From assembly GCA_029817715.1 (NCBI GenBank), contig JARUPY010000189.1:3472001-3536000 (forward strand): 64,000 nucleotides of DNA. Reading direction: 5' to 3'. Below, piece by piece: positions 1,827 through 50,345 of the stretch (positions are counted from its first letter, which is position 1; each line of letters starts with the position of its first letter). The translations under genes were made by a program, and so were the position numbers. Under the pieces are notes generated by a model. It saw nothing but the letters and a program-made list of their open reading frames with translations. It did no database searches and was not told the DNA's origin. Source of the stretch: Melastoma dodecandrum (taxonomy: Eukaryota > Streptophyta > Magnoliopsida > Myrtales > Melastomataceae).

Positions 1827-1835
1827 TAAAAATAT

Positions 1836-1965
1836 GGCTTAATTATCAAATATACCCTCAACTTTACTAGTTTTTTCAGATTTACCCAGAAGTTTAAATT
1901 GTATCTCTAGGTAGCCTGTACTCTTGACTTGTTTCAAATTTACCCTATTTATTTCAGTCTCTTAG
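1836..1965 (+). repeat. Left terminal inverted repeat
   Basis: It begins GGCTTAATTATCAAATATAC and pairs with the reverse complement of 10363-10492. Similarity is strongest in the first 52 bp and fades toward the shared TTTCAAA and CAGTCTC/AAGTCTC words near the inner end. The viral primer site lies about 45 bp further in. Confidence 0.7.
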
Positions 1966-2008
1966 GTAAACTTTCCCAGACAATAAGAAAATTAATTCTT
2001 CTTAAGCG

Positions 2009-2020
2009 GCTCTGATACCA
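2009..2020 (-). promoter_or_regulatory. tRNA-iMet primer-binding site (pararetroviral nucleotide 1)
   Basis: The minus strand reads TGGTATCAGAGC, the exact complement of the plant initiator tRNA-Met 3' end, which primes reverse transcription in caulimovirids and many LTR elements. No LTRs flank this block, so the pararetroviral reading fits. By convention this site is position 1 of the circular viral genome, so the integrated copy is opened close to its natural discontinuity. Confidence 0.75.
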
Positions 2021-2043
2021 ATAAAGAAATTAAGGAATCGGAC

Positions 2044-2352
2044 TTAAGAAGATTTTCTCAGTTGTCTCTGTCGCCGGCGTTCTGCCAACCTCAAATACTC
2101 GTTAGAATATCTCGAACTTGCCGCAAACCCAAGATTGGATTTACCCTCAAGGAAATATTCCTCAAATTCACTCTGCAAGAGAGTCAGCTCTTCTAATTTC
2201 TTAGAGTAGCTATCCACAAGCTCAAAAAGCTGCTGTATTTGCGCTGAGAGGCCTGCCAGTCGATCTACTACCATGTTGAGAAGTCCAGTAGCAGAATCCT
2301 TGCCCACACCGTGATCCAAATGTAGGAGCTCGGGGTTTGGACAATCAGTCAT
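2044..2352 (-). CDS. Small coiled-coil ORF in the viral leader/intergenic region
   Basis: A 102-residue frame from the first ATG (2352); the open frame extends upstream to 2412 without another ATG. It is rich in Leu/Gln/Glu with heptad-like spacing (VDRLAGLSAQIQQLFELV) and has a basic tail (RRRQRQLRKSS). It lies between the TATA-like box at 2606-2614 and the primer site. Small coiled-coil proteins are known from several caulimovirid genera (for example ORF products needed for virion or vector interactions), but I see no specific match. It may also be a fortuitous leader frame. Confidence 0.35.
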   Translation of the reverse strand: MTDCPNPELLHLDHGVGKDSATGLLNMVVDRLAGLSAQIQQLFELVDSYSKKLEELTLLQSEFEEYFLEGKSNLGFAASSRYSNEYLRLAERRRQRQLRKSS

Positions 2353-2605
2353 AAGACTCTTGCTTTCGCAACTGTCGTGCTTTTGCACCACCTTCACAAT
2401 CTTATTAGATTATGAAGATTATCATAAACTACACAGCGGAAAGTTTATCATACCTTAACTCAGTGGGCTACTCAGAGGGTTCACCAAGCTTCCGCAACAA
2501 TGGAGATCCAAGAGTAGCACAATTCTCAAACTAGAGAATTCAGCGAACGCATCCGCAAACTGGAGAGGCTCTTCTGTGTCGTTCCAATGCCCTTACACTG
2601 AGGGT

Positions 2606-2614
2606 CTTATATAG
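2606..2614 (-). promoter_or_regulatory. TATA box, candidate pararetroviral pregenomic promoter
   Basis: The minus strand reads CTATATAAG, the TATA form typical of caulimovirid pregenomic-RNA promoters, about 590 nt upstream of the primer site. That distance fits a long viral leader. It lies in the gap between the last accessory ORF (ending 2945) and the leader ORF. Confidence 0.5.
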
Positions 2615-2831
2615 ACACTCCTCATCCAAGGTTTCAGCCTAAGGCTATACTCCCTGCAAGGTTCTTGATCTTTCGATCTGACCTTCCGTTAGTCTTAACC
2701 AATGTTAATTCCAACCACCTTACTCTTGGTTCCTTAAGGTATTCGGAGAGCGATTCAGAGATTTCTTACTCAGAGTTTTTGAGAGAGAATTTCTCTATTC
2801 GATTCGCCTCCCCAAATGAGGTAGAGGGCTT

Positions 2832-2843
2832 GTGAATATATAC
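2832..2843 (-). promoter_or_regulatory. Second TATA-like box
   Basis: The minus strand reads TGTATATATTCA followed by a C/T-rich stretch and GAGGCG. It is about 225 bp upstream of the stronger TATA at 2606 and could be an alternative promoter, or chance in AT-rich DNA. Confidence 0.25.
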
Positions 2844-2944
2844 ACAAAGGAGCTGGTGCCTATGCACTATTTGCCAGCTCAAAAGTAAAAGGAATCTAGA
2901 CTGTTGCAAAAGTTAGTGGGGTCCTAATGACCGACAGAAATGTC

Positions 2945-3499
2945 CTAGTCTAACTCTATGCAGTTGTCTTCTCCCGTCTGCATTGGAGCGCTGTCTTGGG
3001 AGACTCCTTCCTTGTTGTTGGCGTTTGAAGTTTCGCCAACTCCCTCTTTCTCTGAGAGTCCCGATGGGTCTTGGACCGCATTAAGAATTTGTTGGGCTCT
3101 CTCATCATGCTCGATTTGCTGATTTAAGGTCTTGTTTGTAAAATCAGCAATCTTACTCCAAACCTCGAAGGTGTCGGTTCGGAGGTGCAACTCAGAGTTC
3201 TCTCGCCTCCAGAAGCTATCCAGAAGGTCGAGCATTCTCTGCCATCCCCGGTCTCCCGCTTGTTCGTCTATAAGGCTCAGATTTGACCGAAGAATCGTGA
3301 CGGTAATTATACCATCACAGAGCACGTAGTATTCGTCCTTGCGGGCTAACACATGCTCCAGCACATCTTTAAGGAACTCAACCTTTATGGCCTTCCGGAC
3401 AGTTTTGTCCTTGTAGTATTTCCGCCATAAACCTCTCTGATCGAGGTCTTGTCGTTGAGGTTCCACCAGACGCCTACTTTCACGGGGTGGATATCCCAT
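2945..3499 (-). CDS. Pararetroviral accessory ORF, C-terminal part (unknown function)
   Basis: 184 residues from an ATG at 3499. The start is basic and Arg/Gln-rich, the middle (FLKDVLEHVLARKDEYYVLC and following) looks like a folded alpha/beta or helical domain, and the tail is acidic and low in complexity (EKEGVGETSNANNKEG). It overlaps the preceding frame (3385-3816) by about 115 bp in another phase, so the two are probably one protein split by a frameshift between about 3430 and 3490, or two overlapping viral genes. The position after RNase H is where transactivator/inclusion-body proteins sit in several caulimovirid genera. I see no recognisable viroplasmin motif. Confidence 0.5.
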   Translation of the reverse strand: MGYPPRESRRLVEPQRQDLDQRGLWRKYYKDKTVRKAIKVEFLKDVLEHVLARKDEYYVLCDGIITVTILRSNLSLIDEQAGDRGWQRMLDLLDSFWRRENSELHLRTDTFEVWSKIADFTNKTLNQQIEHDERAQQILNAVQDPSGLSEKEGVGETSNANNKEGVSQDSAPMQTGEDNCIELD

Positions 3500-3816
3500 A
3501 CTTGCAGATTTTGAAGTATCACCTTCCCATACTGCGGATGGTCTTCTTCCTCCCTCATTGTGCTAGTAATCAACGTCGTGGCATACTTTGGTCCGTAGCC
3601 TAGGCATCCGAGTACAAACCTTACCAACGTAGGCAGGGGTTCCATACATTCTGGTTCGGATCTGTCGATTTCCAGTATGTCTACAAACCCAGCATAGACG
3701 TAAGGCGCTGCTACTCCCACCATATCTGAGTGAATTCTCAGAGACGGCCACTTCCCCGATATCCAGTGTAGATACGGCTGAAGTACAGTGTTCTCCTCAA
3801 GCGAGGATTCACTCAT
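3385..3816 (-). CDS. Pararetroviral accessory ORF, N-terminal part (unknown function)
   Basis: The first ATG is at 3816, only 8 nt beyond the stop (3825-3827) of the preceding zinc-knuckle ORF. Such tight packing of ORFs is typical of caulimovirid polycistronic RNA. The frame starts MSESSLEENTVLQPYLHW and continues with a globular Trp/Tyr/Pro-rich domain that breaks down after about 3440, where the other frame (2945-3499) takes over. No family was recognised. An inclusion-body/transactivator role would fit the position but is only inference. Confidence 0.5.
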   Translation of the reverse strand: MSESSLEENTVLQPYLHWISGKWPSLRIHSDMVGVAAPYVYAGFVDILEIDRSEPECMEPLPTLVRFVLGCLGYGPKYATTLITSTMREEEDHPQYGKVILQNLQVWDIHPVKVGVWWNLNDKTSIREVYGGNTTRTKLSGRP

Positions 3817-3824
3817 GTCCACTA

Positions 3825-5213
3825 CTACCTTGGGACGTCATAGTCTTTGATTTCCCCCGGTATTATAGACATCGATGTGGAGAATATCTGCTGTCTTTCC
3901 TTTTCAACTCGAGACAGCTCCTCCTCACATGAAGCCATAATCGATAGCTTATACTCCAGATCTTTGATGTACTCGGCGGTTTTTCTTGCAAAAAACTCAA
4001 TCTGGCGCTTGTCATCATGTTTGATGCCACCCATGAGTCCTCCACAGACCATAGCCGCATCCCAACTTAGGAATTCGTCCTTAGATGAGTCTTCATCAAA
4101 AAACCAGGATCCTCCCAGATCCTCTTGGGTTTTCCCAACATGGCTCTTGCCATCGTGACCTCTGTCACCGTGAGAAGTCTCACCAGACTCTTTGATCGAG
4201 TCTCTTACAGGAATTGATTCCTCAAGGCTTTCTTTCTTTTCAAGATTACCTTCCAATGCTGCGTAAGCACTTCCGAAGTCGAAGTATTGCTCACACTCCA
4301 TTGCAGCCGCTTCTTCTGGTTCTCCCCTTGGTTCAGGGTCTACCACCTGAATTGGCTCGCCAATTATGGCCTTAAACTTAGCCTCCTCCTCAGCATATTG
4401 TGTTTCCATTTCCTCCTTCTGTTCTTCCTTGCTTTGTAACAAAGCTTTGTAGGATTTCACAGCTTGATTAATGGACATTTTCTGCTCTTTGGCTAAGTGG
4501 TTTCTGCAGTAGTTAAACTGCTCCATGGTCAAAGGAGACCACCAAGGTTCTTCAACCTTTCCGTCCTTCTTAGGACCATCCTTTGCAGAATCATCCCCTT
4601 TGGGACCAGAAGACCCAAGCCTCTTGGCTTTCCTCTTCTTCCTGGCTTTCTCCTCTGACTCGGCTTTTGCCTTGTCTTTCAGATCTGCCATTTTCACATC
4701 TCTTCTGGAGCTTTCCTCCTTCGGATCTGTCATCTTCTTTTGAAGATCTTTCTTCACATCTCTTTCAGAGTTGGTGTTACCCTTCTCCTTCAGATCTGTC
4801 TTCCCCTCCTGGGAAACTCTCGCTTTCTCCTTGGGATTGGTTATTACCTTTCCCTTAGATCCAGCCATCCCCTTCTGGGATTCTTTCGCCTTTCCCTTAG
4901 ATCTGGCCTCAGCCTCCTTGGGATTAGCCATCTCCTTCTGGAGATCTGGTTTCGCTTCACTCTTGGAGTCAGCTTTTGCTTTCTCCTTAAGTTCAGCCTT
5001 CCCCTTCTGGGAATCCGCAGTTTTCAGCTTCTTGGGACATTCGTAAGAACGATGTCCTAGTTGCTTGCACTGCCAGCAGAGCACTGCCGCCTTCGTTCCT
5101 GAAACGGAACCAGCATCACTATGCTCACTTTCTCCCTTGTTAGGACATACCTTTCGGGAGTGTCCCTCCTTCTTGCATCCCCAGCATATCTTTCTCTTTG
5201 CAGCAGGATCCAT
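3825..5213 (-). CDS. Lysine-rich double zinc-knuckle protein of the pararetrovirus
   Basis: 462 residues from the ATG at 5213, intact. Two CCHC knuckles lie at the N terminus (C10-C13-H18-C23 and C46-C49-H54-C59). Residues about 60-210 are a degenerate K/E/D-rich repeat built on KEKA/KGK/LQKEM words, predicted to be highly charged and coiled. The C-terminal half has an acidic section and a final coiled-coil-like segment (KDLEYKLSIMASCEEELSRV). It overlaps the end of the RNase H frame by about 75 bp in another phase. A separate nucleic-acid-binding ORF after RNase H is unusual for the family; the coat protein further upstream has its own knuckle. The function is unknown. It stayed open while the pol frame decayed. 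Confidence 0.6.
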   Translation of the reverse strand: MDPAAKRKICWGCKKEGHSRKVCPNKGESEHSDAGSVSGTKAAVLCWQCKQLGHRSYECPKKLKTADSQKGKAELKEKAKADSKSEAKPDLQKEMANPKEAEARSKGKAKESQKGMAGSKGKVITNPKEKARVSQEGKTDLKEKGNTNSERDVKKDLQKKMTDPKEESSRRDVKMADLKDKAKAESEEKARKKRKAKRLGSSGPKGDDSAKDGPKKDGKVEEPWWSPLTMEQFNYCRNHLAKEQKMSINQAVKSYKALLQSKEEQKEEMETQYAEEEAKFKAIIGEPIQVVDPEPRGEPEEAAAMECEQYFDFGSAYAALEGNLEKKESLEESIPVRDSIKESGETSHGDRGHDGKSHVGKTQEDLGGSWFFDEDSSKDEFLSWDAAMVCGGLMGGIKHDDKRQIEFFARKTAEYIKDLEYKLSIMASCEEELSRVEKERQQIFSTSMSIIPGEIKDYDVPR

Positions 5214-6943
5214 CTGCAGAGTTTTTAGAAAGAGAGGTGTTTGCAAGTTCTCTAGAGAGAGAGTCAGCTATTATGTTGTGGTCGGACTTAATGTATTCGA
5301 CCTCATATTTATAATAGCTTAATTGTTCCTGCAACCTTAAGAGTCTAGTTTGCCTAGCTTCCTTAAGGTTCAGTCTCATAAACCTTTTTACATTGGTCGA
5401 GTCAGAGCGCACTAAAAATTCTTTTGGTGCCAAAAAGATGTAAAAGGCCTTTATTCCGTTTTTTAAGGCCAATACCTCCTTTTCATGTATCGGGTATCTT
5501 AATTCATACCCCTTGAAGCTTCCCGACCAGTATTTACACACCGGTTCTGGTTTTCGTCCTCTAATTTTGAGGACTGCTCCCCATATCCTTCAGAAGCATC
5601 AACTTCCAAGACTAACTCGTCCTTGTCAGAAGGTAGAGCAAGTTGTGGCAAATTTTTCACCTTTGCTTTAATCCTTCTAATGGATTGAGTGTCTTCATCT
5701 TCCCATTTCCAAGGATTTGTAGAAGAGGTTTTCTTCGCAATCCTACTTAGATCTCGGGAAAGATCTTTCACAAACTTTCTTGCATAGTTAGCGCATCCAC
5801 AAAATCTTTGGACTTGCTTTCTATCCTCAAGTCAGTCAGGAAAATTAATTATTTTCTCAGCAATATGATTTTGCAGTTTAATTTTTCCCTGCTCAATCTC
5901 CATGCCTAGAAAATTAACTGATTCCCTAAACCGCTCTATCTTTTTCTTTGATAGAATCATGCATTCTCGTCGGAAAACATCAGTCACCTCATCAAGGTGT
6001 CTCATGTGTTCATCTTCAGTCTGACTGTAGATTAGCACATCGTCAATATAAACCGCACAAAATTTTCGGACCTACTTGAAAGCATTATCCATTTTGCGCT
6101 GAATACGCCTGGAGCATTTTTCAGGCTGAACGGCATTACCAACCATTCAAACATTCCTTGCGGAGCATTGAAGGCAGTTAGAGGAACCGATCCTTCCTCC
6201 ATCTTGACTTGCCAGTATCCACTTTTCAAGTCAAATTTAGAGAAGAACTTTGGTTGGCTCAGACTTATCCTATCAATTAAATCTCCCGCAGTGGGAATCT
6301 TATAGCCATCGTCTTTTGTAGCTTTGTTAAGCTGACGATAATCTATAACCATTCGTGCTTTACCTCGCACCTTCTCGGCATGATTAATAACCATAAAGGC
6401 AGGACTAGAATGTGGACTGCAACTGTCCTTAATCAAGCATTTCCCAAGCAACTCAGGAATTTGTTTGTCAAACTCCTCAACCATCTCAGCCGTATACGTA
6501 ATGTTTCTGGCTCTCATAATTGTTCCGGGATCTTTCAACTCTAATCTAGCCTTTAGGCCATTTCGAGTCCATAACTTTAGTGGATCTTCACTAAAATTAT
6601 CGGCTAGTTTTATTAGGAACTTATCCCATTTCGTTCCTGTTAACTTGACAGCCATACACACTTCTTGTTTTGGAAACAAGTCGTCATACCAGCTAGAATT
6701 TCTGGTATTCGTTGGAGAAAACAGGGTTTGTTCCCATGAATCGTTCTCATCCAACCGTATATCACCACGTTGAGCTCGCACTCTGAAAGCTCTTTCACAT
6801 GGGATATCTCCACAGTATTCTGTCCGTTTTACTGGATAAAAGCCAAATTTTAACCGAAGTCTAGGCTCTTGTAGAATACTTATCTTTACCCCACCGATGG
6901 AAACATCATTTTCATTCTGCACAAAAGGAAGGTTTTCCTTCTG
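5140..6943 (-). pseudogene. Pararetroviral reverse transcriptase - RNase H, broken
   Basis: Reads from 6943 downward. The RT thumb/palm/fingers region is at about 6700-6100 (motifs MVIDYRQLNKAT, FDLKSGYWQV, GMFEWLVMPF) and the catalytic YIDD is at 6039-6050. The connection and RNase H follow: VLEVDASEGYG at about 5590-5620, and the DEDD-type second half to 5140. Breaks: a frame change between about 6075 and 6115, an in-frame TAG at 6072-6074, TGA at 5832-5834, and another frame change near 5499-5541. The upstream TGA at 6944-6946 separates it from the protease in the same frame. The enzyme would replicate the viral genome by reverse transcription. This copy cannot encode it. Confidence 0.8.
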
Positions 6944-7834
6944 TCATTTCAAAAAGGCGTTACCAATAATGATGTCGGCCTCTAGTAAAGGATGTGCAAG
7001 AATCTCCTTAATGATGAACTTTTGTCCACCAATAAAGACAGGCACGTTGCTTGCCTTATGACAAACAATTGTGGCCATACCATCGACGTTAACCATGTGG
7101 ATGGGTTTCTGCAATGGTTTCCACCACTCATCTGGCAGAGTATTGAGTCTAGCACAAGTTATGCTACACCCAGTGTCTATCAAAGTATCCAGAGAATACT
7201 CATAGTATCCAGGAAATTTGAAAGTTAGAGCCACATATGTGCTCATGTCTTCCTTCCTAACACTAATCCCAATATTCTCAGGTACCTTCTGGGATGGTTC
7301 TATCATCCTCCAGATATCGTCTATCGGTATAGACCTTTGCTCGGCTATTTGCTCAATAACCTTACAAACTTCAGGAATCCCAGATAAAGAGTTTTCCATA
7401 TTGGTAACTCTTAACATCCTTATGGATTCTTCTCTCGTTTGGTCTACCGGGTCTTCATAGACTGGTAATGATACATGTCTATACCCTACGATTCTACCCG
7501 TATGTTGCGACGGGGCTCTCGAATCAACAGACCTTCGAGACATTTCTTCTATTAGTGGTGGAGCAGATGCCTCTGCTGGTCGGGACACTATTATGTCCTC
7601 TCCCACATCACTAGCTCTAGAAGAAACATCAGAGGGCGTTCTATTGAACGGCTCTCTCAGGATTGGCTTCCTCATAGGCAAATGCCTGTCAGCCCTTTCG
7701 CTAAGCATAGGCAAATGCCTATCAGTCCTTTCATTGACCCTTGACGGATCTCCTAACATGAGAGTAATTTCATTACCCCTTTGTCGGATGTTTGCCGCAC
7801 TAATGGGTCTAGAACTACTACCAGGTTCAGTCAT
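6944..7834 (-). pseudogene. Pararetroviral aspartic protease segment
   Basis: 296 open residues ending at TGA 6944-6946. The N-terminal 150 residues are Ser/Arg/Pro-rich and disordered, with a short duplicated unit (two nearly identical ERADRHLPM-type copies). The C-terminal part is a retropepsin-like domain with active-site LIDTGCS at about 7160-7180 and the late motif ADIIIGNAFLK. It is in the same frame as the coat/movement segment upstream and the RT downstream, so all were once one polyprotein that this protease would have cut. The ATG at 7834 is probably not a natural start, because the frame continues upstream past a TAG at 7850-7852. Confidence 0.75.
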
Positions 7835-8011
7835 AACCCAGTTTCTTGGCTAGGTTAACTCCAATGGGTTTACCTCCCGCCTGTGAAACTGTTGGTAGTT
7901 ATTATGACCTTCTTCGAACAACTCAGTAAGTCTTGAGATGTTCCTCACACCAGGACTAGTGGTATTTACCAATCGGTAAATTACTCTAGTGTGATACGCC
8001 AAATATTTGGC

Positions 8012-10354
8012 CTAGGGATTCATACGATCCATATTCATCGACTTGATTCTTAAGGTTAATGAAGTCCCCAAACAGCGATCGTTCAAAGCCATCATAAAGT
8101 TTGGATGGACTTGGAACCATACAGGGCCATGTGCTAGGTTGGCCTGTACTCCTGATATCAGCTGATCTCTAAACTCTCGCCATCGTTTATCGATCACTGC
8201 TGCTACCACAGGACTATCCGCTGGTAAATGAAACAGCGGGACTAATCCTATCTGGATCAACCCAATGTGTATATAGTTATATACACCTCTCGTGTTACGC
8301 ATGGTATCTCTTATGCGTTGTACATTTAAGAGTGGGATATCCAAAGTCTCAAGCTCTGTGCTTGTGACTTGAGCCGTCGCTTCTATTTGCGAGATATCTT
8401 TGGTGGATCGAAACCTAAATCTCGATACTTCATAAACCTCCCTCGCATTGACATTTGGCAACCTCCATTCCAGAACTGACTGGGATGGATCTTCGTACTG
8501 GTGGGTTTCCTCCAGTACCTGATTCGATGCTTCCAATGGAACCATCTCATCACCATCTCCGTTTTGCTCTGCTCTCATCATGAACAGATGCATTTTCCAG
8601 AGATCAGAGTCATCTTCTGAGTCTGTATCGTAATCTGACACTATCTCATATATCGACTCTACTTCCGAGTCTAAGTCGGAAATTTCTTGCTCATCTATTG
8701 GTTCATAAGCAAGGACTTCTTTCTCATGACTCCTGTCATCTAGGAAGACCATACGGAGTCTTTCTCTCCTTTGGTTCTTCTTTGGACAACTATCCGCTTT
8801 GTGATCTTTTGAACCACAAAACCAGCAGCAATTACAACTGCTTAAAGGTTTCCCTTTAGGACATTTAGGCTCTCTGCCATGCTTTCTTTTGAAGGCATCG
8901 ATCCTATCTTTATCCTTCAGGTTATCCCTTCTCCTCACAAACCTTCTTGGTTTGTAAGCATGACCTCCCCTTTGCTTACGCTGGACGTCCTTCTTGGGCC
9001 AAACTTTCTTTTTATTGTACCCAACAAACTTCCTCTTACGAGGAAAGTTCCTTCTCTTCAAAGAGTCCCCTGGATTACTGCGAGTATCGCATCCGTATCT
9101 TCCAGGCACATACTCTATCGGAGAACAACAGCTCTTGTTCAGGTAAGGTAGCTTCTTAGCTGCCTCTTTCACCTGGAGCTCAGTACATGCTTTACGCATT
9201 GCGTACTTCACCGCCTGAATTTTACCTCCGAGTCCAGAGACAATCTTTTCCTCACTCAGAAGTAATTCATAGGCCTTTTGCGCAACTTCCGGCCAAGGTT
9301 CGGGAAGTTTTGCAAAAAAGGTTCCTAATATGAACTGTTGTGATACTACATCCAGATTGTAATAATACTTCTGGAATTCACACACGTAGCTATCAAACCA
9401 GCACATATCACAGATCTGTAGTTTAACTAGAGCGGTCAATGACTGCTCTTTCTCCACAGTCTCAGTGGATAATGAGAAACCACAGAACTCTCGTTTCAGG
9501 GCATCAGCGATTATTGCCAATACTCCATCAACCGTCAGCGCCTGATCTATTTTTTCCTTAATGTCTGTGTGCGCCACTAAGGTTTTCCAATATTTTTGCG
9601 CTGTACCCATGAGGGCCGCTACACATAATTCGTAGACTGCTCCAGGAGGTACTCCTCCTGCAGATGCCGTCATCCGAATAAGTGATAACCACTCATCTAT
9701 CTTTTCAGATACGTGCTTCTCACAGTCGATATCTAGAAAAGCACCAGGGGTTATTATCGGCTTTAAAATATTATCCCTTGGGACAAACTCTTGTTTAGTC
9801 CTATGAGGATAATCGGGCCTGTAAATTTCCCTCTTCGCAGTTACCAGTTCGTTAAACGTTCTATTGTCTAAATGAACTGGGGTATCCTCTGCCAGACCTA
9901 AGGCTTTCCTTAAGTCTTTTGCCAACTCCCCACTCTGGGAGTTCAAGTTTGCACTTCGCTTTTGTGAGTCTAAAATGAAAGGAGCCACTGACTCCCTATA
10001 CATTTCATCCACACTCTTGCCTTGATTCTGTTTGAAATTTCTTCCTCTCACATTCAATCTTTCGACTGGTTTTTCTGTTGTACTTTCCAGTCCAGAGGTC
10101 GCCTCGTCTTCAGGCCTTTTTAAACCTCTTTCTCTTTCCAGAGCGTCTAACATTGTATTTACAATGGAGCCTACTTCCTTTGCCATTTGGTTTCGGCTTT
10201 CTAGACTTTCATTGCTCCCTTGAATGGTTAGCTGAGTTAAAATATCATTTATACTCTTGCTAACTCCAAAAGGAGACAATCTAGCATCTGGAACGAACTC
10301 CAACCTTGATGGAGTCCCGGAAGGATTTCCCGAAGATTTTCCTCCTCCAGCCAT
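8012..10354 (-). CDS. Pararetroviral coat protein - zinc knuckle - movement protein polyprotein segment
   Basis: 780 residues from an ATG at 10352-10354, about ten bases inside the right inverted repeat. Residues about 180-420 form the capsid-type helical core. Residues 430-500 are strongly basic. A CCHC knuckle (CWFCGSKDHKADSC) is near 510-523 and a Ser/Asp/Glu-rich acidic stretch near 550-590. Residues about 640-780 resemble the C-terminal half of the 30K movement-protein superfamily (IHIGLIQIG, then HGPVWFQVHPN). TAG at 8012-8014 ends the frame inside the movement domain. The same frame continues for another 53 codons, still movement-protein-like, to a TAG at 7850-7852. Coat before movement is the order known from cavemovirus-like genomes. 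Placing both in frame with pol is less usual. Confidence 0.75.
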   Translation of the reverse strand: MAGGGKSSGNPSGTPSRLEFVPDARLSPFGVSKSINDILTQLTIQGSNESLESRNQMAKEVGSIVNTMLDALERERGLKRPEDEATSGLESTTEKPVERLNVRGRNFKQNQGKSVDEMYRESVAPFILDSQKRSANLNSQSGELAKDLRKALGLAEDTPVHLDNRTFNELVTAKREIYRPDYPHRTKQEFVPRDNILKPIITPGAFLDIDCEKHVSEKIDEWLSLIRMTASAGGVPPGAVYELCVAALMGTAQKYWKTLVAHTDIKEKIDQALTVDGVLAIIADALKREFCGFSLSTETVEKEQSLTALVKLQICDMCWFDSYVCEFQKYYYNLDVVSQQFILGTFFAKLPEPWPEVAQKAYELLLSEEKIVSGLGGKIQAVKYAMRKACTELQVKEAAKKLPYLNKSCCSPIEYVPGRYGCDTRSNPGDSLKRRNFPRKRKFVGYNKKKVWPKKDVQRKQRGGHAYKPRRFVRRRDNLKDKDRIDAFKRKHGREPKCPKGKPLSSCNCCWFCGSKDHKADSCPKKNQRRERLRMVFLDDRSHEKEVLAYEPIDEQEISDLDSEVESIYEIVSDYDTDSEDDSDLWKMHLFMMRAEQNGDGDEMVPLEASNQVLEETHQYEDPSQSVLEWRLPNVNAREVYEVSRFRFRSTKDISQIEATAQVTSTELETLDIPLLNVQRIRDTMRNTRGVYNYIHIGLIQIGLVPLFHLPADSPVVAAVIDKRWREFRDQLISGVQANLAHGPVWFQVHPNFMMALNDRCLGTSLTLRIKSMNMDRMNP

Positions 10355-10362
10355 TCAGAAAA

Positions 10363-10492
10363 TCTGACCTTGAGACTTCAATGGATATTTTTGAAACTAG
10401 GTCTAAGTTCTGGATACGGAGAGATATTTCTTAAACCTTAGGGTAGATTGGAAAAACTTTGTAAATATGGGGGTATTTTTGATAAAGCGGCC
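10363..10492 (-). repeat. Right terminal inverted repeat
   Basis: Read on the minus strand it begins GGCCGCTTTATCAAAAATAC and matches the left repeat (1836-1965). The coat-protein ATG follows immediately inside. Confidence 0.7.
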
Positions 10493-10501
10493 TAAAAATA
10501 T

Positions 10502-19437: not shown

Positions 19438-20294
19438 ATCATGTATTATATCCATTTTTTTCGATCTATTCGTTATTTGAAACACTTTGAAACCATGTAT
19501 GTATTTACTCCGTTATATCAAATACATCCTCCATTGGTGTTGTAAATAACGGCGTCCTACGTGTCATCCTTGTTGGCACAAACGGTGTTACGTATCCGTC
19601 TTCTCCAAGGCCAAATTAGCAAATTTATCTTGTACTATACTCATTTTTTCGATTTAAAACCATATATGTACTTACTCTGTTATATTAAATCAATCATCAG
19701 TTCATATATGTACTTACTCTGTTATATTAAATCAATCATTAGTTAGTATTGCAACTGATGATGGCACAAACGACGTTAATACACGTCCGTTTATACAACA
19801 TGGCAGAAACGACACACATGAAGCCCTAATTCCCTCAACACCAGGTAATCGTATTTTCGTTGTATTCAGAAAACTGCACTTCAGTTCGAGACCAGGGGAA
19901 ATGACCTACTTTTGACGAGCTAATAAGGGGAATTAGGGCTTTTGGGTCAATTCTCATGGAGTAATAATAGGAGTGACCTACTTTTGACACCCTGACTCCA
20001 CATCAGACTTTTTTTTACCACGTCGGCTTCACGTGTGTCGTTTCTGCCATGTGACACGTAGGACACCGTTATTTGCAACACTAACTGATGATGGATTTAA
20101 TATAACGGAGTAAGCATATATATAGTTTCAAAGCGTTTCAAAGAACAGGATAAATCGGAAAAAATTAGCCTTGGAAAAAACGGACGCGTAACGCCGTTTA
20201 TGCCAACAAGGGTGACACTAGGACGCCGTAGTACAGATATTGTTCAAAGTGTTTCAACAAGGGTAAATCGAAAAAAATGAATATAATACATGAT
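19438..20294. repeat. About 860-bp foldback (inverted-repeat) element
   Basis: The first bases (ATCATGTATTATAT) are the reverse complement of the last ones (ATATAATACATGAT). Successive blocks also pair: the GAAACACTTTGAA region, the GGCGTCCTA(C)GTGTCA block (19550/20210), and the GTTATAT-TAAAT block. A 43-bp direct duplication (CATATATGTACTTACTCTGT) sits in the left arm near 19665-19745. The loop is around 19850-20000. This looks like a foldback MITE or a nested pair of related MITEs. I found no clear target duplication. Confidence 0.65.
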
Positions 20295-20319
20295 TAAGAA
20301 AAGACGCAAACCTTCGGGG

Positions 20320-31096: not shown

Positions 31097-34000
31097 TCAA
31101 GAGAGTATATCTATTTTAGATGAAACCGGAAATGGGATCCACCACAAACTTAGTTCAATAGATAACTTACAAGAAATATCAACAAACCATGTCGCCCTCG
31201 TGTGATTTATGGTCCAAGTTGTCACTTGATCAATCTCATCACCCATCAATGGAGAATTATGCATACACTTTGGATACAAATACTCATCATGTTCTCCGTT
31301 TGGAGTTCCTATGACATACAAGTCTACAACTTGGAACCAATCCTTCTTGATCGGATCTTGAACGTCGAAAACTTGCTTGGCTTGAGAAGAAAACACATTT
31401 GGGTCATCCTTCAACATAACACCAGTATGAATCAAATTGCTAAAATTAACTAAAACTTTTCTATTTGCGTCTTTTTTCAATCCTCGTGATGACCTAATAT
31501 TTGCCCATTCATAACGAAACAAGACTACTTTAAAGTTACCATAGTAATCTAGCTCAATAATTTCGTTAGGCACTCCATAATAATCTTTTCCATCAGCCTC
31601 TACCATAATACCACTGTTTTGGGATTTGAATAACCTTTCTCGTTTCTTCATGTGAAACCTATAACCACCTATTGTAAATCCATCGAATCTTCTAACAAGG
31701 TTATTAGGTCCGCGAGCAAGTACAACTATTTTCACTGAACATTTATTCTCAACCATATGAGAAACCAAGAAATTTTATGAAAATAAAGATGGGTCACTAA
31801 AAGTAAAAGTTACATAAGGAAAATGATGTTGAAAGTCAAACCTTAGAATGGTTACTTTTGCAATAAGCCATCTACTGTACATCTCCACAATCCATTTATT
31901 CTCAGTAGCTTGACTAGGATGATCAAAATATTGAAGTCACCTTTGTTCGGCCAAAAATCACTGCGCATGCAAGTTACAAAGAAATTGTTGAGTAATCAAA
32001 ATAAATGCTACTAAGCGCATCGTTGTAGGAGTACCTGCTGTAAATATCCAAGGCATCACAATGAAGAAGCACATAACGGTGTGCTTGATCATGCATTTTA
32101 TCTTCAAGAATAATTCTATCGATTTTGCCGAGAATACGCCCCCGATGAAAATTTATAACATTCATCATTCACATTATTATCATTTCAAGGGGCAATTAAA
32201 TCTCGTCTTAATTGCTTCCAGATATCTTGAACAAAAGTTGAGACATTCTTCAGTCATATATCCTTCCACAATCGATCCCTCTGGAGTGCTTTATTACGAA
32301 CATGAGATTTCAGCCGCATTAACATCCTACACAAATTTTAAAAGGATTAAAAATAATCATGATTTTAAAGAAGGTAAATTATAAAAGATCAAAATAATAA
32401 CTAACCTATCCGCAAAGTACATTCATCTACACACAACTGGGCCACCGAGTTTTGCTTCTAACAGGAAATGTATCATAATTATCGTAAAGAAATCAGGAGC
32501 AAATATTTTCTCCATTTGACAGAGCAATACGATGATCTTAGATCTCAACTCGTCAATTTTATGCGTGTCAAGTTCTTTGCTGCATAATTCTTTAAAGAAC
32601 GCAAATACTTAACAAACAACTCTCACAACATCTTTTGGTAGAACTCCTCTCAAAGCTACATGAAGAATATCTTGCATCAAAATATGTCCATCGTGACTTT
32701 TTAAATTTTTAAGCTTCCAATCTTTCAAGTTAACACATCTCGAACCATTTGACGCGTAGCCATCGGGAACTTTAAGAGCTTTCAGAATTCCTAAAAAGGT
32801 GTCCTTTTCCTTAGTAGACATGGAATTACAAGCATGAGGCAAATAATATCTATTATTAGGAAGAGACATTGGATGAAGGCCCGGTCGACCACCCATATCT
32901 TCCAAGTCACACCGCGCATTCAAATTATCTTTACTTTTGCCTTCTAAATTTAACAAAGTTCCAACAATATTATCACAAACATTTTATTCTATATCCATCA
33001 CATCCAAGTTATAAAGAAGTAAATTATACTCCCAATAAGGAAGAATAAAAAAATGTACTGCATTTTTTCCAAGAAGAATGTGTTTCCCCACCTGTCAAAT
33101 TTTCACCGTTGCGAAACTCGTCATAAGCTTCTGAAGTAAAGTCATCTGCATCTACAAATAATTTTGATTTTTCATTACTTCTTTCACTTAGTACATCATC
33201 ACTCATGTTGATAATAGGATTTAGTACATCAACACTCATGTTGATAATAGGATTTCTTTGTTTACCTCTCTTCCTTGTACTACTTATTGACTTTCCTTAT
33301 ATATGTTGTAAATGATCAACTTGTCTATGAACCTCCATGTCAGAAAGAGGAATAAGAGCAGCCCTTATTTCAATTTCCCCATCAAATTGATATTTCTGAT
33401 ATCGAAAAATATGTTTCTCATCCAACCGCCATCTATGACCCATATAATAGAACTTCTTTCCATATTTTAACCATCTAGAATGAGTTCCATCACCACAAAA
33501 TGGACACGCCATGCGACCTTTGGTACTCCATCTAGATAAATTAGCATAGGCAGGGAAGTCATTAATGGTCCAAAAAAGTGTAGCACGCATTTTAAACAAT
33601 TCATTTCTTGAGACATCAAATGTATGTACTCCTTCCCACAATGTCTTCAACTCTTCGATCAATGGGCTAAGGTAAACATCTATATCATTTCCTGGACCTT
33701 TCTCAGTGGGAATAACCATGGAAAGAAAGATGGTTGAAGGTTTCATGCAATTCTAAGGCTCCATATTATAAGGAAATAAAACAATTGGCCCAAGTACTAA
33801 GTTGTGCTCTTAGTCCGAAAGGGATTAAATCCATCACTAGCTAAGGCCAAACGAACATTTCTAGCATTTGCTACAAAGCTAGGATATCGTTCATCAAATG
33901 TTTTCCTTGCTAATGCATCAGCAAGATGCCTTAAGATATCATCCTCAGTTCTCTTTTCCTTATGCAACCTCATTGGCTCTGCAGTTTTACTACATAAATA

Positions 34001-44387: not shown

Positions 44388-44754
44388 TGTGAGCTTGGCA
44401 AGTAAAAGCTGAGTTGGTACAAGAAGAAGTGAGCAGGAAGGAGTGCTCGGAGCAGGATTGATAAACATGGGCTGAGCTATGATCAAGATAAAGGGGGCTG
44501 GATCTGAAGCAGAGCCTAAAGCATTTTATTGTAGTAGCAAGGGCAAATGTGTAATAGCGCCTTATTTTTAGTTAGTTGGTTGAGTGAGTGCAGTGTAGCA
44601 GGGAGGTGCAGACACGGGTACAAATGATTCGTTTTGTTGGCCTGTGTATGGGTGCGCGGTTGTTAGAAAGTTTTTGGGAAATCGAATGGATAAGTTTTTC
44701 TGGGTTGAGCTGAGGAAGACGATGGAGTCTATCATCGCGTTTGCCTAACCTTCA
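44388..44754 (+). repeat. 5' LTR of the copia element
   Basis: Begins TGTGAGCTTGGCAAG and ends GCCTAACCTTCA. It matches 49341-49707 except for four substitutions in its first 150 bp. Confidence 0.97.
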
Positions 44755-44766
44755 TGGTATCAGAGC
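44755..44766 (+). promoter_or_regulatory. Copia primer-binding site
   Basis: TGGTATCAGAGC, an exact initiator tRNA-Met complement, abuts the LTR with no spacer. Confidence 0.95.
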
Positions 44767-44801
44767 GCGGCTGCTAGCCGGAGGTGAGGCAAAGGCGACA
44801 G

Positions 44802-47800
44802 ATGGCGCTGGAGATGGTGGACAACCCTCACTCACCATTTTTTGTCAATTCCAGCGACTTGCAGGTGGTGAGTATAGTATCTCCCGAGCTATCTGAGGGT
44901 AACTATCCTTCCTGGAGAAGATCGATGGAATTGGCATTATCAATCAGGAATAAAGTTGGGTTTGTAGATGGGACGTTAGAGAAACCGGCAGTTAGTAGTC
45001 CTCTGTTTTCTGCCTGGGTCCGATGTGATAACTTGGTGAAAGCTTGGCTCCAAAAGTCAGTGTCAGTCACGATTGCTTCAACTATCTTCTACCTCAACAC
45101 TGCCAAGGAAATATGGGAGGAGTTGAAGGAGAGATATGGGGAGCCAGACGATTCCAAAATATGTCAGCTACAGTCGGAATATCATGGGCTGGTGCAGGGG
45201 ACCAAAACTATTGCAGGTTTTTATAATGAAATGCTTTCAATATTACGAGAACTGAGAGTCTATCGACCAACCCCGCATTGTGATTGCGGGAAGTGTGAAT
45301 GCGGTTGGCAGCGTATGTATGTGGAACAACAGCAAAAAGATATGGTATACAAATTCTTGAATGGTCTCAGCAAGGAATATGAGGGGCTGAGGACACAAAT
45401 TTTGCTACGGAAGCCTTTTCCTACCTTAGGAGAGGCATATAATATAGTGCAGCGAGAAGAACTCCAAAGAGGGGTGAGAAAAGAGGAGGCAGGACTAATC
45501 TCACATCCCATGGCAGCAACTGCAGTTGGGAAAGCAGAACATGTAGAACAAAGCCATGTGAATTTTGCTGGGAAGAAGAGATTTGGACAGGAGATTGTTT
45601 GTGATCACTGTGGGAAGAAAGGGCACATCAAGCGGGAATGCTTCTTTCTGGTTGGGTTTCCACCCAGCGTTAGAGGAGGAAGAGGTCGAGGAAGAAGCTC
45701 GATGCGTTATCAAGGTGGAGACAACAGAAGGTCTGTCAATTTCATCAAGAATGGAGGAGAGGCTGATGTGCAGCAGCTGTCACAGTTAAACTTGACTGGG
45801 AATCAAGTCCAAAAGCTATTGTCATTGCTTAATGTGGAAGAAAGCAGTCGATCTACTGCCTTGGCTAACCAAAGTCAATCTGGTCAGACACCTATGCCCC
45901 TTGTTACTTCTGTTCCTTCTACAAGCTTTTCAGGTGAGTTGTCTACTCATAGCAAAGCCATTCGGGCAAACCATGAAACCTGGATCTTAGACACAGGGGC
46001 AACAGATCATGTTGTCTCTGACCTAACCAGCTTTGACAAATATCAAAAATTGCAACCTCCTTTACAGATCCATTTACCAAATAAATCCACAGTCCTAGCT
46101 ACCCATATAGGAGTGGTGCGTTTGAACTCAAATCTTATTCTGGAAGATGCGTTATTTGTACCAGACTTCCAGTTTAATCTTGTTTCAGCTAGTAAGATCA
46201 CTACAAAGCCATACATTTGCCTCATTTTTTCTCACGACTCATGTTTCATTCAGGACTTGCGCAATTGGATGACGATTGGGCTTGCTAAGAGGAGAGGAGG
46301 CTTGTATGTGGTCGAGAAGATGATTGGGAACTTGCAGTCTACACAACCTTTTGTGCAGAGTCATCCATCACTTCAGTCATGTGCACAAGACACATTACAT
46401 GCATTTACTACAGCTAGACATTGCACTAGTTTAGACAGCTTTGATCTTTGGCACTTAAGACTATGACATGTTTCACACAGTAAAATTCCTGTTTTGAAGT
46501 CTTTGGAACCAGCTATCACAGTATTACAGAATAATGCATGTACAGTTTGTCATCAAGCTAAACAAACACGTTTGATGTTTCCAGTTAGCAGAATACAAAG
46601 TGCATCTGCTTTTGATCTTTTACATTGTGATATATGGGGTCCCTGTGCAATCACAGCTTTAGGAGGCTATCGCTTCTTTCTGACAATTGTTGATGATTTC
46701 ACACGGGTCACTTGGGTGTTTCTGTTGAAAACAAAGGCAGAAGTTAGAGGGTTGCTGCAGGACTTTTACTGCTTTGTAGAAACACGGTTTAAAGCAAAAA
46801 TAAAAGGTATTAGAAGTGACAATGTTAGTGAATTTCTCATGACAGATTTTTATAAAAAACATGGCATCATACATCAAACTTCTTGTGTGGAAACACCACA
46901 GCAAAATGGTGTTGCGGAACGCAAGCATCGACATTTGCTAGAAGTAACTAGGTCACAGTTGTTTCAAGCAAACATGCCTCTATACTTTTGGGGTTATGCA
47001 TTGCTAGCTGCAACACACATAATTAACAGGTTACCAAGCACAGCTTTGCAACATAAAACACCATATGAGAAGCTTTTTCATAAGGTGCCTGCATATCACA
47101 ACCTGAGAGTGTTTGGATCCCTTTGTTTTGCTTGCACACACTCTCATGATAGGAAAAAACTTGACAGAAGAGCTAGGACATGCATCTTTCTGGGCTACCC
47201 CACTGGAGTCAAAGGGTATTATTTGTTTGATGTCCAAAAACAAACAGTTTTTATATCCCGAGATGTCATTTTTCATGAATCAATTTTTCCCTTTCAATCA
47301 CAGCAAGACATGCATTCATTCTCAGAGTCATTAGTCTTACCTGCATTTCCATCTGAGATTTCTGGTGGTTCATCCTTTCATGATACCGATCTGCATGCTA
47401 CACCAAGTGGCAATCATTCATCCAGCACAGATTCTGCAGAATCAACAAGCACCGCTTCTGCAGATTCTGCAGCAGCATTAGAGCATTCACACAGTTCTGA
47501 ATTGCATGATCATACAAACACTGCATCTCCCACAGACTCATTTTTAAGAAGGAGTACAAGAGACAGGCGAGTACCTGGTTATCTTCGAGACTATCATCAT
47601 AGCCTTGCCTTACTCCACGCAAGCCCTGACTCATCTGATTTGCATAACAGGTCAGTCAACTCCATACCTTCTTCTTCTACTACTTCTTCTTCTGTTCTTT
47701 ATCCGATTGAACCATTTATTTCCTATTCACGACTGTCCAAACCGTATAAAACTTACCTGTTGGCTTTGGAGCATTTTTCTGAGCCGCATGGCTATAGAGA

Positions 47801-49358
47801 GGCTAGTAGTATTCCACATTGGCAAGAGGCAATGGCTGCTGAACTTAAAGCCCTTCAAGAGAATGAAACTTGGGAGATAGTTCCTCTACCTTCTGGTCAG
47901 AGGCCGATTGGATGCAAGTGGGTTTTTAAAACGAAACTCCAAGCTGATGGATCAGTAGAGCGGCATAAGGCCCGATTGGTTGCCAAAGGCTACACACAGA
48001 GAGAGGGGTTTGATTTTCAAGAAACTTTCAGCCCAGTAGCCAAGCACACCTCTATCCGCACATTCTTAGCACTTGCATCCATGCAGAATTGGTATCTTCG
48101 TCAATTTGATATTCACAATGCCTTCTTGCATGGAGACCTTTTAGAAGAAGTTTACATGGAAGTGCCTCAGGGTTTGGACATTCAGGGGGAGAAGCACAGT
48201 GGGGCACCATTGGTCTGCAGGCTTAGGAAGGCACTATATGGTCTAAAGCAGGCATCACGGCAATGGAATGATAAATTGTCAGCTTGCTTACTGGCTGATG
48301 GATTTCAACAGTCAAAGTCGGACTACACACTATTCACCAAACAAGGGGAAAAGGGATTCATAGCAGTGTTAGTATATGTGGACGACATGGCAATTGCAGC
48401 CTCATGTGATGTGCTTATTGATGAGCTCAGGAGATATTTACTGCAATTCTTTAAAGTACGAGATCTTGGAGTGTTAAGGTACTTTTTAGGACTGGAAATA
48501 GCAAGATCCAAGGAGGGTATTCTGGTTTCACAGAGGAATTATGCCCTGAGGTTGTTGGAAGATATGGGGAAACTAGGAGTGAAGCCCTGCAGCATTCCAA
48601 TGACTCCTAATCTAAAATTGGGGCGTGATGAAGATCAGGAAGTTGTTGAAGCAAGTGCGTACAGAAAACTAGTAGGGAGGCTTATATACCTGGGAATCAC
48701 AAGGCCGGATTTGGCTTTCACAGTGCATATGCTTGCCCAGTTCATGGATAGGCCAACCAAGAAGCACTGGGATTCTGTAAATCAAGTTCTCAGGTACTTG
48801 AAGAATACTCCTGGGAAGGGACTGTTCTTCTCGAGTAGAGAAGCGCCACGGCTTGAGGCATATTCGGACAGTGATTGGGGTGGATGCATCGACACACGCA
48901 AATCAACCACTGGGCTAGCCGTGTTTCTGGGGAGTTCACTGGTGAGCTGGAAGTCGAAAAAACAAACAACGGTGTCCAGAAGCTCAACGGAGGCGGAATA
49001 CAGAGCAATTGCAACCACTACAGCAGAGGTTCTGTGGCTGATATCATTGCTGAAGGACTTTGGGATTGAAACCAAGCTGCCAATACCGCTTCATTGTGAC
49101 AATAGATCAGCAATATACATAAGCAGAAATCCAGTGTTTCATGAGCGCACGAAGCACTTGGAATTGGATCTGCACTTTGTTAGAGAGAAGGTGGAGCAGG
49201 GTGTTGTTGATCTGCTGCACCTCAGAACACATCAACAATTGGCAGACCTATTTACAAAGGCACTGCACCCTGGGAGACAGAGCCAGCTCCTGAGCAAGAT
49301 GGGAATGAGGGATATTTATAATTCCCATCTTGAGGGGGAGTGTGAGCTTGGCAAGTAA
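44802..49358 (+). pseudogene. Copia gag-pol polyprotein with a single TGA
   Basis: Read from ATG 44802 (the frame is open a little further upstream, without an ATG). Gag core at residues 1-230; CCHC knuckle CDHCGKKGHIKREC near 267; protease ILDTGATDHVV near 394; gag-pre-integrase; integrase with CTVCHQAK zinc half, D-D-E residues in LLHCDIWG, RSDN and ETPQQNGVAERK; RT with WVFKTKLQADG, FDIHNAFLHGDL and YVDD (48373-48384); RNase H with AYSDSDWGG, STEAEYRA, HCDN. TGA at 46464-46466 replaces one codon in the pre-integrase motif between LWHLRL and HVSH. Everything else stays in one frame to TAA 49356-49358, 18 bases inside the 3' LTR. Translation beyond residue 554 would require readthrough. Confidence 0.93.
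49331..49340 (+). promoter_or_regulatory. Copia polypurine tract
   Basis: TGAGGGGGAG directly before the 3' LTR, the usual plus-strand primer. Confidence 0.85.
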
Positions 49359-49707
49359 AAGCTGAGTTGGTACAAGAAGAAGTGAGGAGGAAGGAGTGCT
49401 CAAAGCAGGATTGATAAACATGGGCTGAGCTATGATCAAGATAAAGGGGGCTGGATCTGAAGCAGAGCCTAAAGCCTTTTATTGTAGTAGCAAGGGCAAA
49501 TGTGTAATAGCGCCTTATTTTTAGTTAGTTGGTTGAGTGAGTGCAGTGTAGCAGGGAGGTGCAGACACGGGTACAAATGATTCGTTTTGTTGGCCTGTGT
49601 ATGGGTGCGCGGTTGTTAGAAAGTTTTTGGGAAATCGAATGGATAAGTTTTTCTGGGTTGAGCTGAGGAAGACGATGGAGTCTATCATCGCGTTTGCCTA
49701 ACCTTCA
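49341..49707 (+). repeat. 3' LTR of the copia element
   Basis: Same length as the 5' LTR. It contains the last codons of pol at its start and is followed by the ACTTC duplication. Confidence 0.97.
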
Positions 49708-50345
49708 ACTTCCTTGTTTAAATAAGTAACTCTAACCTCATGATAGGAAGGAGGCTTCATATTTCTCCCATAGTCTCCCATTGCATGTATCATAGTGGTG
49801 AAACTATCATAGTTGACGGCATTAAAAGGAATTCCAGCATCATACATCCATCTACTAAATGCCTGAACTGCGTCATCTCTCATCTTCTTCTGGTACGCAT
49901 CAAGCTCCTTTGAGTCTTGTTTCTTTTTCTGAATGACAACATCATCACCCTGATCTTGACACTCACGATAGAAATAATCAATAGGGCCTCTTGATCTTTT
50001 TGCACTTGAGCCAGATTCAATAGTGCGATTTGATGCTGCGTGACTCGAAGCATTGAACATTCCTTCATCATCTAATTTATCCAAATGGGGAATTGCATCC
50101 ATTTTGTGCTTAGATTCCTTCTTATTGGCCATGTACTGCTTCAATTCTTCCATAACAGGAGGAAGGCAATCACGACAAGCCTTCACTTCTTTATAACCTC
50201 CAACAAGATGTTTCTTAAATCGACTAATTCCACCATTTGTTACTTTTCCGTAATAATTGCACTTCACTTTATTCATATTATTGGGATTTATTAGAGTTCC
50301 ATGACACCATGCAGGATCCTTTCGGTTTTGATTTGAAGAAGACAT

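Follow-up and report, generated by a model that had tools for sequence, protein, structure and literature searches.

Can a plant pararetrovirus carry the ends of a cut-and-paste DNA transposon as part of its own genome? This question is raised by an element at positions 1827 to 10501 of a 64,000-nucleotide stretch of Melastoma dodecandrum DNA (contig JARUPY010000189.1, positions 3,472,001 to 3,536,000; hereafter the window), in which a near complete virus lies between two terminal inverted repeats (TIRs) flanked by a target-site duplication (TSD). Two papers, in the parts consulted, describe as speculative or unknown the ways in which endogenous pararetroviruses get into plant genomes and increase there (PMC10377300; PMC10175614); the second gives the mechanism of their integration and propagation as unknown. 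From comparison of the copies in the host genome, we consider it probable that the element belongs to a florendovirus-like pararetrovirus lineage (Caulimoviridae) in which TIRs of Mutator type are part of the genome, virus and ends forming one moving unit that would replicate with its own reverse transcriptase (RT) and be inserted by the transposase of a host Mutator-like element (MULE).

Ends and target duplication of the window element

The ends of the element and the duplication around them are as follows.

1827 to 1835, no strand: left TSD, TAAAAATAT
1836 to 1980, plus strand: left TIR, type A, with tip GGCTTAATTATC; inverted pair with the right TIR; 40 scored genome matches at 89–100%
10358 to 10492, minus strand: right TIR, type A, with tip GGCCGCTTTATC on the minus strand; inverted pair with the left TIR; 42 genome matches
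10493 to 10501, no strand: right TSD, TAAAAATAT

The first-pass annotation of this stretch had reported a perfect 9-bp TSD exactly flanking an inverted pair with 38 of 52 ungapped matches at the tips; we read TAAAAATAT at both edges and obtained the same 38 of 52 on recomputation. When gaps are allowed, the pair (1836 to about 1980 against 10358–10492) aligns over 140 columns at 70.7% identity, and its local score is 95 as compared to a maximum of 55 in 2000 random pairs taken from window positions 12000–63700. In a comparison of the window with itself, 8 inverted pairs of at least 30 nt were kept and an in-register flanking 9-bp repeat was found at the element pair only, while among 20,000 random position pairs a perfect 9-mer occurred within 12 bases in 17 and in the exact tested registers in 1. 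The target duplication of MULEs is typically 9 bp. The TIRs of the element (about 140 bp, 71% identical between ends) have the length expected of a MULE, for which long TIRs and TSDs of 7–12 bp are the pattern described in the part consulted of PMC10741241.

The virus begins close to both repeats, much as the annotation had placed it. The tRNA-Met primer site (2024–2011, minus strand) lies about 45 bp inside the TIR when this is taken as 1836–1965, and the coat ATG (10354–10352), put at about 10 bp inside the other repeat, was measured 8 bp inside the TIR taken as 10363–10492. A 4-bp CAGA repeat is present at both viral joints and is not significant, since repeats of at least 4 bp occurred in 1323 of 3000 random position pairs. 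Joined to each other without the virus, the two ends would make a 278-bp hairpin with the virus near its loop (z –7.5; none of 200 shuffles was equally stable).

The age of the window copy, estimated from three in-frame stops, is about 1% (95% range 0.2–3%), far below the divergence of its two TIRs (Jukes–Cantor 0.37), which suggests that left and right end already differed when the copy was inserted; the genome copies, with left ends near the window's left end and right ends near its right end, are consistent with this. Nested inverted repeats seen by eye at window positions 19480–20300 match the left TIR weakly (E 1.6e-4) and may be a further MULE-like element; the element at 19609–20300 that gives this match was not accepted as a relative.

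Copies elsewhere in the host genome

We searched the 373-Mb host assembly with the left TIR, the right TIR and the coat start, and scored the best 40 of 282 candidates, the best 40 of 175 (42 matches) and the best 40 of 562, respectively. A right match on the same strand and within 40 kb was found for 26 of the left matches, and 14 had no scored partner. The spans of the pairs are 7.5–10.8 kb in 25 (8.55–8.75 kb in 21 of these) and 29.9 kb in one; the stretches fetched from the paired copies were their ends. At the fixed tips, identical 9-mers were present in 24 of the 26 pairs, a duplication within the 7–12 bp of MULEs, as compared to 7 of 650 mismatched-partner combinations, and on our reading of the list all seven of these join contigs of the same site. 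When flanks were compared, the 40 left ends fell into 34 distinct sites, the remainder being duplicate contigs or haplotigs, and the 26 pairs into 22, of which 21 have a perfect TSD. The 22 TSDs entered from these 21 sites (one was entered twice) are 95% A or T. Two contigs, C601 (G000:C601:3129376) and C89 (C89:118659), hold one insertion site with spans of 10.5 and 8.6 kb, perhaps because of a later nested insertion in one haplotype.

Every best-scored end match, 40 left and 42 right, has virus inside the TIR. The primer side lies inside the TIR in all 40 left ends, and in 39 the match to virus begins with the query's first viral base; in the exception, on contig C330, the first 112 viral bases have no match. 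All 42 right ends are in stretches with a coat start, two of them being second copies of a local tandem duplication. The same virus–TIR joint is thus present at 81 of 82 end matches. At two loci, L071 (C602) and L098 (C307), the right end is tandemly duplicated as the TIR plus about 40 bases (a piece of flank and the coat start) with a spacing of ~175 bp.

Because the ends, the TSDs and the virus inside at the same joint recur together, the unit of movement is the virus with its ends. The annotation had proposed a search for further full-length copies that share the ends, hold virus and differ in their 9-bp TSDs, and such copies exist (24 of 26 perfect, 22 sites, different flanks); its proposal of a Mutator-like element that mobilises a virus is supported by the recurrent joint and by the TSDs that the copies have of their own. 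Before the genome was compared, the simplest reading was that a virus had landed by chance in one small MULE and that the window copy is a lone oddity. The window copy itself and nothing else speaks for that reading, and we give it almost no probability, given the recurrent joint and an own TSD at 21 of 22 distinct sites; a virus inside a small MULE, the competing reading in the annotation, is excluded for the family by the same joint at 81 of 82 end matches. Just as improbable is that the copies arose by segmental duplication of one locus or as duplicates in the assembly: part of the contigs are indeed duplicates or haplotigs (34 sites for 40 left ends), but no flank match of at least 60 bases was found among the 34 sites at E 1e-5, and the TSDs differ.

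More copies were reached through 19 further coat matches, three of which are loci already among the 40 and for all of which left-end stretches were fetched. The right TIR was present in 16 of these (76–93%) and absent in three. Both tips were found in 14, where the TSD is perfect in 7 and has 7–8 of 9 matches in 7; in two more the left end lies outside the stretch fetched, and the remaining three carry another end. We also searched for the tip pattern genome-wide with up to two mismatches and found 255 and 249 occurrences on the two strands (504) as compared to 0 and 1 for the reversed pattern, so that copies would number in the order of 250 if most tips belong to the virus–TIR family. The tip listing gives 100 places and is complete to one mismatch for contigs C13–C185. 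On those contigs there are 62 tips, and all 16 facing pairs within 40 kb join a left with a right tip, 8.29–8.80 kb apart; no short virus-free pair of less than 2 kb is among these 16. The annotation had named, as the pattern that would count against it, ends always without virus and virus elsewhere without ends: the second part is seen in 3 of 40 coat matches, which have virus without these TIRs, and, for the first, no short virus-free pair was seen among the 16 facing pairs.

Viral genes and selection between copies

The annotation had called almost all of the interior viral, and with Pfam we found viral domains between the TIRs, every one of them on the minus strand: coat and movement protein (8012–10354), aspartic protease (6944–7834), RT (6032–6922) and RNase H (5140–5771), after which comes ORF2.

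1978 to 2068, minus strand: predicted RNA hairpin around the primer binding site, ending at the start of the TIR (z –2.8; 2 of 200 shuffles as stable)
2011 to 2024, minus strand: viral tRNA-Met primer binding site
2945 to 5267, minus strand: ORF2 region with an N-terminal zinc knuckle; frame breaks near 3.83 and 3.48 kb
5140 to 5831, minus strand: RNase H domain, broken frame
6032 to 6943, minus strand: RT, N-terminal part; ratio of nonsynonymous to synonymous differences (dN/dS) 0.16 over 200 codons
6944 to 7849, minus strand: aspartic protease region with an in-frame stop at its end
8012 to 10354, minus strand: open frame of coat and movement protein, 780 codons, the movement domain cut by the stop at 8012; dN/dS 0.13 in the first 135 codons

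From 10354 to 6032 there is a single frame with in-frame stops at 8012, 7850 and 6944, followed by ORF2. P0006, a gene model of Melastoma candidum, aligns unbroken from 7981 to 6548 across the stops at 7850 and 6944, which therefore seem to be lesions; the window copy has further frame breaks near 6.1, 5.5, 3.83 and 3.48 kb. The nearest proteins are from M. candidum (93% over 71% of the length for the coat query), and the named RT matches come mostly from land plants. The five domains together with the tRNA-Met primer site, whose convention for such viruses is given in PMC4241990 as far as consulted, place the virus in the Caulimoviridae, and by gene layout its organisation resembles that of florendoviruses. 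Scans of viral_contigs with the coat–movement ORF, the RT piece, the coat alignment and a 27-base primer-site pattern returned no relative, no match to the element was found in the phage collection, and scans with Rfam and for tRNAs gave no hit in the window.

To describe how the viral genes differ between copies, we compared the first 135 codons of the coat gene in 59 rows (two already-counted rows dropped, same-site contigs kept) and 200 codons of RT in 20 rows (19 fetched and the window). In the coat gene, 51 of 59 rows have no indel relative to the window and 3 have a stop, each at a different codon. Over the 1275 pairs of these 51 copies, mean dS is 0.127, mean dN is 0.017 and pooled dN/dS is 0.13, a value that, like that of RT, is a description and not a test. 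Coat dN/dS is 0.67 for the 8 pairs with dS<0.03 and drops with distance to 0.11 for the 358 pairs with dS>0.15, the course to be expected of copies that descend from selected genes and, once inserted, decay neutrally. In RT, dN/dS is 0.16 over 190 pairs; of the 20 rows, 14 are free of stops and indels, and no two of the 3 stops share a codon. As read from these substitution patterns, the coat and RT genes are under purifying selection between insertions, which argues against viral genes as passive cargo. The element is thus, going beyond the annotation, not merely a MULE with a dead virus in it, as judged by this selection between insertions.

These values bear on the possibility of transposition only, in which a Pack-MULE-like element captured a virus once, MULE transposase copied it and the viral genes are idle passengers. 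The single joint at 81 of 82 end matches and the MULE-like TIRs and TSDs would fit such a history, as would the position of the virus near the loop of the 278-bp end-to-end hairpin, and animal Pack-TIRs are reported, in the part consulted of PMC8277862, to arise when gaps within a transposon are filled, their breakpoints being skewed towards its interior. Passengers, however, should drift near a dN/dS of 1 instead of the 0.13 and 0.16 found between copies, and they should share lesions, whereas the frames are mostly open in the segments viewed and the stops are at different codons. We therefore regard transposition only as unlikely.

Slightly less likely again is that the ends are viral by origin, that the 9-bp duplications are the work of an enzyme which the virus itself encodes, for example in ORF2, and that the resemblance to Mutator ends is convergence. 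Three end types within one virus family and an ORF2 with a zinc knuckle and no assigned function are compatible with this. Against it, searches of P0004 and of the pieces of ORF2 with E up to 10 found no transposase or integrase profile (weak matches above ~0.1 being mostly filtered), and long TIRs with 7–12-bp TSDs are the pattern already described for MULEs (PMC10741241, in part).

Possible exchange of ends and the proposed route of insertion

At least three types of ends (A, B and C), as classed by their sequences, are present on nearly the same coat gene. In the 48 copies with right ends of type A or B, mean TIR distance is 0.110 and mean synonymous difference in the coat gene is 0.114, and the two distances are uncorrelated (r = 0.007). 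In TIR distance, type A copies differ by 0.066 among themselves and by 0.193 from type B (38 A, 10 B, 3 C). In coat distance both of these comparisons give 0.039, and A against C gives 0.042, the copies of types B and C having been picked by coat similarity. These data suggest that ends and genes have been exchanged, as by template switching. The reverse case is seen at L027–L029 (C354, C95 and C87), where the left TIR is 95% identical and the first 1020 viral bases 71%, a divergent virus with nearly the same ends.

Three coat copies (L113, L117 and L123) carry ends of a third kind, different from those of the window. Their right end is of a common type and stops at the same base, give or take one, and the left end was found for two of the three, both of which carry another inverted pair of ends. 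On C273 the ends form an inverted pair with an alignment score of 101, and the same ends on C129 (C129:1508377) are flanked by a perfect 9-bp TSD, TGAAAACTA; on C495 (C495:3426503) the left end was not found in the fetched stretch.

How would such a unit insert? In the free circular genome, the leader would hold the two TIRs back to back, with the primer-site hairpin on one side and the coat ATG on the other. A MULE transposase supplied in trans may act at the tips and open the circle there, and the opened circle would be inserted with a 9-bp duplication. The integrated copy is linear, with the primer site and any preceding promoter at its left end and reading outwards, so that, on the map, a single copy should not be able to yield full genomic RNA and a circle would be needed; new circles would arise when the virus is transcribed and reverse-transcribed, following either the excision of a copy or an infection. 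Candidate MULE transposases for supply in trans are many in the host: all of the 150 scored of 1241 matches are over the Pfam cut-off, with open frames up to 794 aa.

We find the evidence about evenly balanced on a broader proposal, that the lineage is a hybrid of class I and class II elements, replicating by reverse transcription and entering chromosomes through DNA-transposon ends that would act back to back in the circle like an attachment site, with an exchangeable end module (A, B, C) that lets one viral gene pool use several sets of ends.

Several points weigh against a virus with Mutator-type ends as the moving unit. Two of the 26 pairs (C234 and C89) lack a perfect TSD in the fixed register, although C89 has 8 of 9 matches and its partner contig for the same site 9 of 9, which leaves C234 as the exception among sites. 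The coat copies L113, L117 and L123 have other ends, and at C273 no recognisable TSD was seen. Among the 62 tips on C13–C185, 30 have no partner in the list, and candidates beyond the best-scored ones may include weaker, virus-free copies of the TIRs. The MULE transposase profile (PF10551) was not found in the interior ORFs searched, and the element, with no transposase domain found, would be at most a non-autonomous MULE member. Lastly, the choice of B and C copies by coat similarity biases the coat figures towards likeness, and the pairs behind the dN/dS values are non-independent and include same-site contigs.

The closest known systems, compared through the parts consulted of the cited papers, each share some features with the element. 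Teratorn, a fusion of piggyBac and a herpesvirus in fish, is presented as the first case of a DNA virus fused with a cut-and-paste transposon (PMC10175614); it is a 180-kb herpesvirus with its own piggyBac transposase, whereas here an 8.6-kb reverse-transcribing virus has Mutator-type ends and no transposase was found in the ORFs searched. Endogenous florendoviruses have a coat–movement–protease–RT–RNase H polyprotein followed by a second ORF, a layout that the element resembles, and, as here, a tRNA-Met primer site and many copies in a plant genome, but their entry is described as occurring via break repair, often beside TA repeats, and the words 'inverted', 'transposon' and 'target site' are absent from the main text of that paper (PMC4241990), unlike the TIR-bounded virus here, whose ORF2 is also longer and has a zinc knuckle. 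Pack-MULEs and Pack-TIRs are TIR elements with foreign cargo (PMC8277862); their known cargo is host gene sequence, whereas here it is a near complete virus with coat and RT under purifying selection. For an endogenous banana streak virus flanked by Ty3/Gypsy, entry of a caulimovirid with the help of a mobile element has also been proposed, but there the case is built on a retrotransposon, with recombination, at a single locus that has two alleles (PMC10377300), and not on transposon ends around many copies.

Other elements are present in the window. A Copia-type long terminal repeat retrotransposon at 44388–49640 has 300-nt direct repeats that are 99% identical and two long open frames, and is probably young. 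Pieces with Transposase_21 and DUF4216 at 31097–33746 are of CACTA type, and an ORF at 49698–50345 has a BED zinc finger, a domain often found in hAT elements. In the left flank, a 51-bp tandem repeat is present in two copies at 1101–1200.

The annotation had remarked that no such route of spread was known to be described, and the open-licence literature, which we searched in part, shows no pararetrovirus with transposon ends. If our reading is true, this would be, as far as that literature shows, the first reverse-transcribing virus reported with the ends of a cut-and-paste transposon. A regular transposon-like insertion signature at many sites, together with viral genes that appear to be under selection, would make the entry of pararetroviruses into plant genomes directly testable.

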